Assembly: GCF_021531055.1 (NCBI RefSeq)
Contig: NZ_JADYTL010000001.1
Span: 62,001 to 126,000 of the forward strand
Direction: 5' to 3'
Length of the DNA stretch: 64,000 nt
Source of the DNA: Collinsella tanakaei
Lineage (GTDB): Bacteria > Actinomycetota > Coriobacteriia > Coriobacteriales > Coriobacteriaceae
A program made the translations under genes and the position numbers. Under the pieces are notes generated by a model. The model saw only the letters and a program-made list of their open reading frames with translations. It was not told where the DNA came from and made no database searches. Below, piece after piece: positions 23,474 to 26,208 of this stretch (the first letter of the stretch is position 1; every line of letters begins with the position of its first letter).

Positions 23474-24961
23474 ATGTTCGAGAGTCTGTCCGATCGCCTG
23501 AACGATACCTTCGACCGTCTGCGCGGCAAGGGTAAGCTCACCGAGGCCGACATCACCAGCGCGATGCGCGACATCCGCATGGCGCTGCTCGAGGCCGACG
23601 TCAACTTCAAGGTCGTCAAGGACTTCGTCGCCAAGACCCGCGAGCGCTGCCTGACCGCCGATGTCATGGAGTCGCTGACGCCTGCGCAAAACGTCGTCAA
23701 GATCGTCCTGGACGAGCTGACCGAGCTGCTCGGTTCCACCGAAAGCAAGCTCGTCCTGTCCAACCGCATCCCCAACGTGATCATGCTCGTCGGCCTGCAG
23801 GGCTCCGGAAAGACGACGGCTGCGGTCAAGCTCGCCTACATGCTCAAGAAACAGGGTCACTCGCCGCTGCTCGCCGCCTGCGACGTCTACCGCCCCGCCG
23901 CCGCCGACCAGCTCGCGACGCTCGGTGGCGAGATCGGCGTGCCGGTGTTCCGCGGCGACGGCGCCGATCCGGTCGGCATCGCGCGCGCGTCGGTGCGCGA
24001 GGCCATCGACAACCTGCGCGACGTCGTGATCGTCGACACCGCCGGTCGCCTGCAGATCGACGAGCAGATGATGCAGGAGGCCGTCGACATCAAGCGCGCC
24101 GTCAAGCCCGACCAGGTGCTCATGGTCGTCGATGCCATGACCGGTCAGGACATCGTCAACGTGGTCCAGACCTTCGCCGAGCGTACCGATTTCGACGGCG
24201 TCATCATCTCCAAGCTCGACGGCGACGCCCGCGGCGGCGGTGCGCTGTCCGTGCGCGCCGTCACCGGCAAGCCCATCAAGTTCGTGTCGATGGGCGAGAA
24301 GCCCGATTCGCTCGAGCCGTTCTATCCCGACCGCATGGCCAAGCGCATCCTCGGCATGGGCGACGTCGTCGGCATCATCGAGAAGGCCCAGCAGGCTGCC
24401 GATGCCGAGACCATCGCGAGCGCCGAGCGCATGCTGCGCGACGGCTTCACCATGAACGACATGCTCGAGCAGATGCGCGCCGTCAAGAAGATGGGCGGCA
24501 TGAAGTCCATCCTGGGCATGCTTCCGGGCGGCCAGAAGATGCTCAACCAGATGGGCGGCAACCTCGACGAGTCCATTTTCGCTCGCAACGAGGCCATGAT
24601 CATGTCCATGACGGCCGAGGAGCGCATGAAGCCCTCGATCATCAACGGTCAGCGCCGCGCCCGCATCGCCCGCGGCTCGGGCGTCACCCCCACCGACGTG
24701 AACCAGCTCATGAAGCAGTGGGGCGAGATGAACAAGATGATGAGCCGCGTGCGCGCCATGTCCCAGCAGGCCGGCGGCAAGAAGGGCAAGAAGGGGAAGA
24801 AGGGCAAGAAGATGCGCATGCCCAACATCCCAGGCATGGGCAATATGGGCGGCATGGGCGGCCTCGGTAACCTCGGCGGCATGGGCGGTCTCGGCGGCCT
24901 TGGCGGCGGGTCCGAGATGGACATGCTGCGCGAGATGGAAAAGCAGATGCGCCGCAAGTAG
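23474..24961 (+). CDS. ffh: Signal recognition particle protein Ffh
   Basis: This 495-residue protein has an N-terminal helical domain, a GTPase domain (GLQGSGKTTA; DTAGRL; SKLDGDARGGGA) and a methionine-rich M domain that binds 4.5S RNA and signal peptides. After the M domain is an unusual tail: a run of GKK repeats near residues 440-450, a long Gly/Met/Leu-rich stretch (MGG and GLGG units), and a basic amphipathic end. Such a tail is seen in several Actinobacterial Ffh proteins. ftsY lies just upstream. Confidence 0.96.
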   Translation: MFESLSDRLNDTFDRLRGKGKLTEADITSAMRDIRMALLEADVNFKVVKDFVAKTRERCLTADVMESLTPAQNVVKIVLDELTELLGSTESKLVLSNRIPNVIMLVGLQGSGKTTAAVKLAYMLKKQGHSPLLAACDVYRPAAADQLATLGGEIGVPVFRGDGADPVGIARASVREAIDNLRDVVIVDTAGRLQIDEQMMQEAVDIKRAVKPDQVLMVVDAMTGQDIVNVVQTFAERTDFDGVIISKLDGDARGGGALSVRAVTGKPIKFVSMGEKPDSLEPFYPDRMAKRILGMGDVVGIIEKAQQAADAETIASAERMLRDGFTMNDMLEQMRAVKKMGGMKSILGMLPGGQKMLNQMGGNLDESIFARNEAMIMSMTAEERMKPSIINGQRRARIARGSGVTPTDVNQLMKQWGEMNKMMSRVRAMSQQAGGKKGKKGKKGKKMRMPNIPGMGNMGGMGGLGNLGGMGGLGGLGGGSEMDMLREMEKQMRRK

Positions 24962-25035
24962 GGTTTCCGTGCCGTCGGTATGGGGGCTCACGGGATGCCG
25001 TGCCGCCGCCGGCCGTTCCGAGGTGCCGGCTGCGG

Positions 25036-25344
25036 CTCTGCGCTGACGGTAAAACTCTGTACCGACAGCTGGCGCTCTGTATTGACAGTAGGAACTCTGT
25101 ACTGACAGCGAAAACTCTGTATTGACAGGCAAAACTCCCAGCTGACACAAATCGATGATATTCGCCGGTTTATGTCAGTTGGGAGTTTCTTGTGTCAGTA
25201 CAGAGTTTTCGCTGTCAGTACAGAGCCCCAACTGTCAGTACAGAGCCTCGGGTGTCAGTGCAGGGTTCCAACTGTCAGTACAGAGCCTCGGGTGTCGGTG
25301 CAGGGTTCCAACTGTCAGTACGGAGCCCCGGCTGTCAGCAGAGC
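25036..25344. repeat. Mirrored array of 20-bp-period repeats
   Basis: About fifteen copies of a 13-14 base unit (consensus CTGTCAGTACAGAG) recur every 20 bases. Six left copies (25036 to 25147) run in one orientation and nine right copies (25173 to 25344) in the other, mirrored about position 25160 around a 25-base centre. The arms 25095-25147 and 25173-25225 agree at about 47 of 53 positions when one is reversed. The innermost pair shares a variant (CTCCCA-CTGACA), so it stays complementary. It fills the gap between the convergent ffh and MerR genes. The rest of 24962-25386 shows no gene. Confidence 0.9.
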
Positions 25345-25386
25345 GCTTTGGCCGAGTCCGTGCATCGATCTCGGCGGCTCATCTCG

Positions 25387-26208
25387 TTACGTAAGCAGCG
25401 GTATCTCGACGCGCGTCAGGTACTCGTCGCTTACCGACGTGTCGCGGTTGTCCAACTCGTAGATCTCGAACGCGGGTTCACCGACGTTCAACCCTTGCTG
25501 CTGCGCGTAGGCGAGCATCGAGCGGAGCACATCGCCGTTTTGCTCGTAGGCTCCGCGATAACGGTAGATGAGGTAGTTTCCCGCCGGCAGTCGGAAGTCG
25601 CAGGCTATCGGCTCGTTCTTTAATACGAAGAAGACCGAATCGTAGATGTTGGTGGCGCCGGCCTCAAGTTCCGTGCGCGAGAGGTTCGCGCCGATCGTGA
25701 TGTCGCTCAGATGGGGCGTCACGTCCTTGAGGCGGTGACGAAGGCTCTGGATCGCGACATCCATCTCCTCGTCGACCTCGATGCGGGCCGCGAGCTCGAT
25801 GCAGCGGCGCTCGGGCATGCGCTCGATGAGGAATCGCCCGCACACCGCGGTCCGCGCGGTGAGGATGGTCCGTTCATGGCGCTCGATCGCCGCCTTGCGT
25901 TCCCGCAGACGCTCGATCTGCCGGTCGATCAGGGCGGCCTCCTCCGATAGGAGCCGTCCGGTGCTCTCCAGGGTGCGATCGTCGAGGTACGTCTTGATCT
26001 GCTGCATCGAGAACCCGAGGAGCCGCAGGTCCTTGATGAGGGACAGGGTGAACATGTCGTCGAGGTCGTAGGCGCGGTACCCGTTGTCCTTGCGCTTGGG
26101 CACGACGATGCCGAGCCGCTCGTAATAGCGCAGCGAGTCCTGCCCGATGCCGAACAGACGCGAGACCTCGCCGATCCGATACTGCTCCTTGAACAGGCCG
26201 TCATCCAT
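25387..26208 (-). CDS. MerR-family transcriptional regulator with effector-binding domain
   Basis: The protein has 273 residues. The N-terminal winged helix-turn-helix (YRIGEVSRLFGIGQDSLRYYERLGI) is that of MerR activators. A coiled-coil dimer helix follows, then a C-terminal GyrI/BmrR-like domain of the kind that senses small, often hydrophobic, molecules. The ATG at 26208 has GGAG just ahead. Divergent from it is a MerR-type operator and promoter, then a YitT-type membrane protein, which it most likely controls. The inducer is unknown. Confidence 0.88.
   Translation of the reverse strand: MDDGLFKEQYRIGEVSRLFGIGQDSLRYYERLGIVVPKRKDNGYRAYDLDDMFTLSLIKDLRLLGFSMQQIKTYLDDRTLESTGRLLSEEAALIDRQIERLRERKAAIERHERTILTARTAVCGRFLIERMPERRCIELAARIEVDEEMDVAIQSLRHRLKDVTPHLSDITIGANLSRTELEAGATNIYDSVFFVLKNEPIACDFRLPAGNYLIYRYRGAYEQNGDVLRSMLAYAQQQGLNVGEPAFEIYELDNRDTSVSDEYLTRVEIPLLT

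Follow-up and report, generated by a model that had tools for sequence, protein, structure and literature searches.

The mirrored array of 20-bp repeats between ffh and a MerR-family gene of Collinsella tanakaei is, on balance, probably one copy of a non-autonomous, dispersed, REPIN/foldback-like mobile repeat of a small Collinsella clade, with arms that would be putative protein-binding sites. The segment that is copied would be a hairpin of about 65 bp, consisting of the core and one unit per side, and the arms would then be extended by tandem unit duplication and degenerate at their outer ends. The 20-bp unit would be recognized by a DNA-binding protein with sequence specificity, in the simplest case the recombinase or transposase that moves the element; such a site would explain the constant spacing as well as the existence of two unit families side by side, TGTCAGTAnnGAG and TGTCGCGnnGGGG. 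The array was noticed in an earlier, sequence-only reading of the window, which is the whole stretch of 64,000 nucleotides analysed (contig NZ_JADYTL010000001.1, positions 62,001 to 126,000), and was compared here with the rest of its genome (the window genome, G000) and with related genomes, among them C. tanakaei ET30 (G021) and G022.

Structure of the array and its neighbours

The array occupies positions 25036-25345 of the window and comprises 20-bp units, six on the left and nine on the right, arranged in mirror image around a core of 25 bp; the unit consensus is TGTCAGTA[CG][AGT]GAGYYYYRRC. The left arm (25036..25147, minus strand) contains six outward-reading units of the TGTCAGTAnnGAG type, which start at 25036, 25055, 25075, 25095, 25115 and 25135 and have a period of 20 except for a single 19-bp step, the outermost, and the right arm (25173..25345, plus strand) contains nine units at an exact 20-bp period, with starts from 25173 to 25333. 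The core (25148..25172) is asymmetric, reads CAAATCGATGATATTCGCCGGTTTA, and can be aligned with 11 other cores of the window genome if flips are allowed. The sequence-only reading was accurate on the array, its coordinates, its period and the change of orientation, and the point it gave for that change, 25160, is the middle of the core. It also pointed out a variant in the innermost unit pair (CTCCCAGCTGACA / TGTCAGTTGGGAG), in which complementarity is indeed kept. The core with one linker and one unit per side forms a 65-bp block (25128..25192), which is approximately the segment common to close copies elsewhere and the sole part with covariation of units between the arms; as DNA, either strand of this block is predicted to fold into a hairpin, with z about -6.

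The array is flanked upstream by ffh (SRP54; 23474..24961, plus strand; Pfam SRP54, E = 8e-72) and on the other side by the convergent gene of a MerR-family regulator with a GyrI-like domain (25387..26208, minus strand; Pfam MerR_1, E = 1e-17). Short repeats in tandem are also present in the 3' end of ffh (24776-24907), namely GGCAAGAAG and a Gly-rich coding repeat of 18/27 bp. Matches to CTGTCAGTACAGAG with at most two mismatches number nine in the window, against 0.18 expected, and none of 100 shuffles reached nine; the RNA fold predicted for 25000-25360 has an energy of -229.8 kcal/mol (z = -16). By unit count and fold z-score, the array is far beyond chance. Tandem Repeats Finder recovered the window arrays at periods of 20 and 40. 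No match was obtained over the window at the gathering threshold of Rfam (4227 families), and a consensus scan of 24900-25450 for an intrinsic terminator (a GC hairpin with a T run behind it) found none.

The family in the window genome

At least 15 elements were counted in the window genome from unit matches plus core patterns, 14 of the CTC type and one of the CCCC type (C8:312k); one place on contig C12 (one mismatch, no array) was left out of the set. At a maximum of one mismatch the unit has 45 matches (18 forward, 27 reverse), and the reversed-pattern control has none. Chance repeats or an assembly artefact, for which the draft state of the assembly (16 contigs) might be cited, have a probability close to nil and are rejected on the genome-wide copies, the shuffle test and the assemblies of the other carriers: the fifteen loci differ in their flanks, the same plan recurs in the arrays of two other assemblies, and the reversed control is empty. 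The earlier observation is thus real and was understated. It had allowed that the array might occur only once or be an artefact of short-read repeats; no fewer than 14 others with flanks of their own were found in this genome, and ET30 has arrays built from this unit, two of which lie at orthologous positions.

The 14 CTC elements have 160 units with 132 spacings, of which 125 measure exactly 20, the exceptions being five of 19, one of 18 and one of 21, and in four of these seven the outermost step is concerned. The 20-bp period is not absolute, as is seen from an ET30 arm (L081:12792-12900) that alternates 18- and 20-bp steps and looks as if a unit pair had been duplicated as a 38-bp block. 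Constraint extends over all 20 unit positions (142 units): TGTCAGTA, C or G, a position where C is rare, GAG, four positions with mainly pyrimidines, two with mainly purines, and C. The unit starts with TGTC, sometimes CGTC, which belongs to the repeat and is not an unpaired tag.

Arms consist of 2-11 direct tandem units per side, and their outermost units are the least conserved. All units of one arm are co-oriented, each element having a single flip of orientation and no alternation, and no fixed outer ends or fixed outer terminal inverted repeats were seen in the family, the arms ending at 2-11 units. Units resemble their same-arm neighbours most (14.5/20), those of the opposite arm less (13.95) and those of other elements least (13.5). 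The two unit families, TGTCAGTAnnGAG and TGTCGCGnnGGGG, have a common plan, and their proportions differ between species, even at one and the same intergenic site (ABC-CutC), as would be expected if the arrays co-evolve with a dedicated DNA-binding protein.

The palindromic centre

Covariation between the arms was measured on 19 aligned 65-bp blocks, a set that includes rows from the relatives. The covariation score is 0.278 against 0.169 in shuffled sets (0/500), with slid versions reaching at most 0.113, and cells changed on both sides number 45 against 24.8 (0/500). Neither the pairs with changes on both sides (13 against 10.6; 38/500) nor the further pair types (33 against 30.9; 131/500) are clearly raised; these are two of the five measures, and the ones least sensitive to kinship. 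Rank by rank, with right arms permuted among the elements of the window genome and about 24 tests run, the mirror match of unit columns 6-12 at rank 1 is 0.786 against 0.657 expected (p = 0.0004; 14 CTC elements) and remains so after removal of near-duplicates (p = 0.0007, n = 11), and units at ranks 2, 3 and 4 have no such signal in the same 14 elements (p = 0.85, 0.23 and 0.61). Pooling the first three ranks gives a weak signal over all columns (p = 0.0035 by identity, 0.0245 with G-U allowed), which is attributed to rank 1 plus the linkers of rank 2. The mirrored linkers of the sequence-only reading are real at unit pair 2 of the window locus, where 19/20 positions are identical across the pair; family-wide, linker mirroring is weak (p = 0.74, 0.013 and 0.10 at ranks 1, 2 and 3).

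The closer resemblance of neighbouring units and the restriction of covariation to rank 1 are read as a palindromic centre with arms that would lengthen as units are duplicated locally. The one very long RNA hairpin that had been suggested would form, given the predicted fold; since mirror covariation is limited to the innermost pair, it looks like a by-product. A sign of selection on such a hairpin along its whole length was looked for in unit covariation and not seen beyond rank 1. Two example units fold no better than shuffles. Another suggestion, a protein bound to the DNA, is favoured indirectly by the period, by the constraint on 20 positions and by the lack of a pairing signal in the outer units.

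Genomic placement and transcription termination

By our own gene calls, six of the 15 elements lie between convergent, eight between co-directional and one between divergent genes, and none overlaps a called gene. A terminator-like hairpin, defined by a simple fold and a T run without a shuffled control, lies between gene end and array at nine of the 14 testable loci, which are those with a gene end facing the element; three of the nine have a weak T run, and at C9:314k and C9:327k the hairpin was found for one of the two gene ends. Three of the five testable loci without one are convergent, the window locus among these. In a relative (L117), ffh is followed by an ordinary terminator-like hairpin; of the 30 loci read together with this one, 13 on the minus strand were left out.

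These counts bear on the proposal that the array is a two-way transcription barrier, put forward because both neighbours point inward. As a general function the barrier is not supported, because only 6/15 loci are convergent and 9/14 testable loci come with their own terminator-like hairpin; at the window locus, where no terminator was found, a role in termination is possible, as a secondary one. A bidirectional terminator or dsRNA-forming hairpin that serves the flanking genes as the main explanation would draw on the predicted fold (-229.8 kcal/mol, z -16), on the lack of an ordinary terminator between ffh or MerR and the array, on the three of six convergent loci without a terminator-like hairpin and on the ordinary hairpin after ffh in L117. 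It is nevertheless very improbable in view of the single divergent and merely six convergent contexts, the nine loci with hairpins of their own (three with a weak T run, no shuffled control), the lack of unit covariation past the innermost pair and a copy number of only about 15 per genome. The mobile repeat that we prefer would act mainly at the DNA level, settling between genes, with no dedicated part in the control of ffh or MerR, a reading favoured by the nine of 14 testable arrays that lie beyond a terminator-like hairpin.

Six of the 15 arrays lie within about 37 kb (C9:291k-C9:328k; L075, L076, L077), a stretch that contains an L24 gene and ends beside rpoC. This cluster, recognized post hoc, may reflect local hopping or a regional preference.

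The core

The 25-base cores seem unrelated until flips of orientation are allowed, and they then have a conserved sequence that occurs in either orientation. In the orientation-optimized alignment of 12 CTC-type cores, which leaves out two near-duplicates and the CCCC-type core, position 3 is A and position 7 is G in 12/12. The information of this alignment is 158.6, against at most 115.2 in 200 controls in which the four outer bases per side were kept and the inner 17 shuffled (0/200; 60 restarts for the observed set, 10 for controls). With equal restarts, 100 controls reached at most 118.0 (0/100 at the observed value), and with a further near-duplicate dropped the information is 146.3 against at most 114.0 (0/100). 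Over all 91 pairs in their best orientation, median identity is 12/25, and conservation is not obligatory, as the core at the shared locus C9:291k is identical at 16/25.

At the ABC-CutC site (L082, L083), the cores of ET30 and G022 match at 22/25 if one is inverted and otherwise at 10/25, and the innermost units are inverted together with the core. Ordinary recombination between inverted units could explain this flip.

Cores of 26 bp that contain AACCGGTT, a LacI-like operator, occur in CCCC-type arrays of ET30 (C1, C22) and G022 (C12). They lie at L233:7990-8177 and L234:7664-8066 in ET30 and at L235:8358-8582 in G022, so that two such cores are found in ET30, one of them also in G022. One context is the interval from a beta-galactosidase to a LacI-family gene, the other that from a starch/glycogen-synthase-like gene to an alpha-amylase/glucanotransferase gene. 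The core may possibly have been co-opted as an operator in the arrays that bear AACCGGTT.

Evidence for mobility

For twelve elements, the corresponding orthologous positions in ET30, G022 and G013 were compared, 29 loci in all, of which 20 could be aligned on both flanks; no mirrored array was found at a maximum of one mismatch in any of the 29. The stretch between the flanks is 391 nt in the window genome against 4 nt in ET30 and 9 nt in G022 at C8:312k, 293 nt against 5 and 30 nt at C10, 240 nt against 19 and 31 nt at C16, and 445 nt against 91 and 89 nt at C9:57k. On this alignment evidence the four loci are read as near-clean empty sites in sister genomes; the remaining loci, with larger or one-sided gaps, are not clean evidence. 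Inspection by eye places the start of the extra DNA of C10 at the linker belonging to the left arm's outermost unit, from where it continues through decayed units, and a REP-like hairpin beside this element also differs between the genomes. No target-site duplication was recognized by eye at the four empty-site loci, where decayed units blur the borders.

Two elements are common to the window genome and ET30, at C9:294k (core 25/25) and C9:291k (core 16/25), the alignment at the latter covering the element and its right flank only. Copy number, which the sequence-only reading had suggested comparing between strains, differs between the two genomes at C9:294k. At the ABC-CutC site on C2, the array is of the CTC type in the window genome and of the CCCC type in ET30 and G022; because the cores are alike at only 9-10/25, two separate insertions are as likely, and the place is counted as a shared site. 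Between ffh and MerR in ET30 there is, by eye, a possible decayed remnant of the CCCC type.

Close copies also occur within the window genome. The cores at C9:294k, C9:297k and C16 are 20-24/25 identical (24/25 for C9:294k and C9:297k), and C14 and C9:326k share 22/25 of the core and have identical linkers at rank 1 on both sides (14/14). The rank-2 units of the close-copy pairs match at 12-16/20, against an average of 13.5 between elements. As likeness extends over the core and about one unit per side and is near average at rank 2, the copied segment is probably about 65 bp long. No solitary one-unit copy was found in the window genome by a profile search with filters that lose weak matches; with no such copy and only shared homology to go by, the 65-bp founder is one that we infer.

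The element thus appears to be mobile, as indicated by empty sites and duplicate cores, and at each single locus a loss in the sister species, instead of a gain here, is possible. The arrays could alternatively be static binding sites for a chromosome-structuring or regulatory protein, each having arisen in place, with mobility merely apparent. The near-constant 20-bp period would fit such sites, as would the six arrays within about 37 kb of C9, a stretch with an L24 gene and an end next to rpoC, and the LacI-like operator in ET30 cores at intergenic sites beside sugar and starch genes. Static arrays would leave unexplained the near-identical cores at unrelated loci, the near-clean empty sites in sister genomes and the 40 of 43 genomes of the genus in which no such array was seen, and we think them unlikely.

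Candidate movers

The window genome has four Y1_Tnp genes, which are RAYT-like (C8:234.6k, C9:168.8k, C13:139.8k and C13:15.5k; L106, L107, L108 and L109). Each of these loci has its own, different hairpin repeats nearby (partly by eye), and no tandem units lie within about 1.5 kb of any of the four. The array could be a REPIN-type element moved by one of these transposases, the tandem growth of its arms being a side effect. Besides the presence of the genes, this reading is favoured by the hairpin-forming inverted doublet and the extragenic spread, both of which are REPIN traits (PMC3116915), by REPs like the Y1-adjacent ones, or a similar one, within 400 bp of 5/15 arrays (three of the five in one C9 cluster; no such REP lies in the 64-kb window), and by CGTC-tagged REPs, which reportedly have no dedicated transposase (PMC3733652). 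Set against it are the different repeats and the lack of tandem units at the four Y1 loci, the example units that fold no better than shuffles and the limitation of covariation to the innermost pair, so that movement by the resident Y1 proteins is a minority reading with a low probability.

IS21/Tn7-like ends have TGTC and roughly 20-bp repeats and were considered for this reason; they were rejected, as the three rve transposase loci of the window genome are without tandem units. One of these loci (L112) gave a 26-column profile match (E = 0.05), and its sequence likewise has no tandem units. No transposase or unit-binding protein for the element was found in the Y1 and rve loci of the window genome. 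Two of the Y1-locus repeats have copies next to four of the mirrored arrays; a fifth array (C10) is accompanied by a different REP-like repeat.

Comparison with known repeats

To our knowledge, most small dispersed repeats described in bacteria consist of one hairpin or a pair of hairpins, or else of tandem modules enclosed by fixed ends. Foldback transposons are eukaryotic, with outer ends that are the transposition termini, and in Drosophila FB long inverted arms are formed from tandem subunits about a middle. The Collinsella element shares with foldback transposons (Drosophila FB, Tetris) a middle flanked by inverted arms that consist of tandem subunits; we know of no sequence link between them.

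REPINs are short, extragenic, non-autonomous repeats with a hairpin-capable inverted pair, dispersed and differing between relatives (PMC3116915). The Collinsella element resembles REPINs and REPs moved by RAYT (TnpA-REP) in being short, extragenic and dispersed and in having a hairpin-capable inverted pair. It differs in that its unit is not a palindrome, in its 2-11 direct tandem units per arm and in the conserved core in its middle. An inverted doublet kept by covariation is present in the innermost pair only, with two of five measures weak; a RAYT gene flanked by the same repeat was not seen at the four Y1_Tnp loci of the window genome, and the unit is not an imperfect palindrome tagged GTAG or CGTC.

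BIMEs are mosaics of palindromic REPs in alternating orientation (PMC2817692). Several short, regularly spaced intergenic units are common to both; by contrast, units of a Collinsella arm all have the same direction, with one flip and no alternation. In the BOX elements of Streptococcus pneumoniae, tandem boxB modules lie between boxA and boxC (PMC3049150). Both are modular small repeats with a variable number of tandem modules, but the tandem units of the Collinsella element stand outside a central core and not between two end modules. BrickBuilt of Porphyromonas gingivalis is MITE-like, with 23-nt tandem repeats inside a non-repetitive leader and tail and outer terminal inverted repeats (PMC4596501). 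Tandem repeats are present in both; BrickBuilt has fixed outer ends, and none were seen in the Collinsella element. The sequence-only reading knew of no named element of this form, in agreement with literature searches by title and start of abstract, which found no description of such an element, subscription journals lying mostly outside the search.

A further-reaching idea is a new class of bacterial mobile DNA that contains nothing except recombinase-binding sites, in which a flippable core of 25-26 bp would sit in a palindrome, a hairpin of about 65 bp would be copied and mirrored iteron arms would then grow; we regard it as rather unlikely. Mirrored direct repeats about a flippable core, missing in sister genomes at many loci, would be a compact system for finding the mover, for tracing how arrays of inverted arms expand and are maintained, and for following the way in which a recognition sequence shifts with a protein.

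Distribution

A search of relatives, also recommended in the sequence-only reading, found the unit pattern at a maximum of one mismatch in three of 43 genomes of the genus (reversed control 0), namely the window genome, C. tanakaei ET30 and G022. As far as searched, the element is confined to a small Collinsella clade. Among 396 genomes of the class, the mirrored pattern at zero mismatches was found in the window genome only, a stringency at which ET30, although included, is missed. The exact two-unit pattern was found among the genome_contigs of 84,980 species, where the window's own or a near genome may be absent, only in C. tanakaei ET30 (contig NZ_JAUDCO010000014.1). Neither plasmids nor phages gave a match to the whole element, and viral contigs contained no match to CTC unit pairs, to CCCC unit pairs or to one core family. 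Single matches of the core pattern in G013 and G039 have no tandem units, and a pattern match in G034 is not an array, the reversed control of that search being high in array carriers (15/18 in the window genome, 3/3 in G022).

In a profile search of the 43 genomes with stricter filters, matches below E = 1e-6 were restricted to the same three carriers. At E up to 0.1 matches were obtained in 17/43 genomes, those of the other 14 being partial (27-37 columns, E 0.016-0.08). Three of the four weak partial matches in G025 (L206, L223 and L226) have a common repeat of their own.
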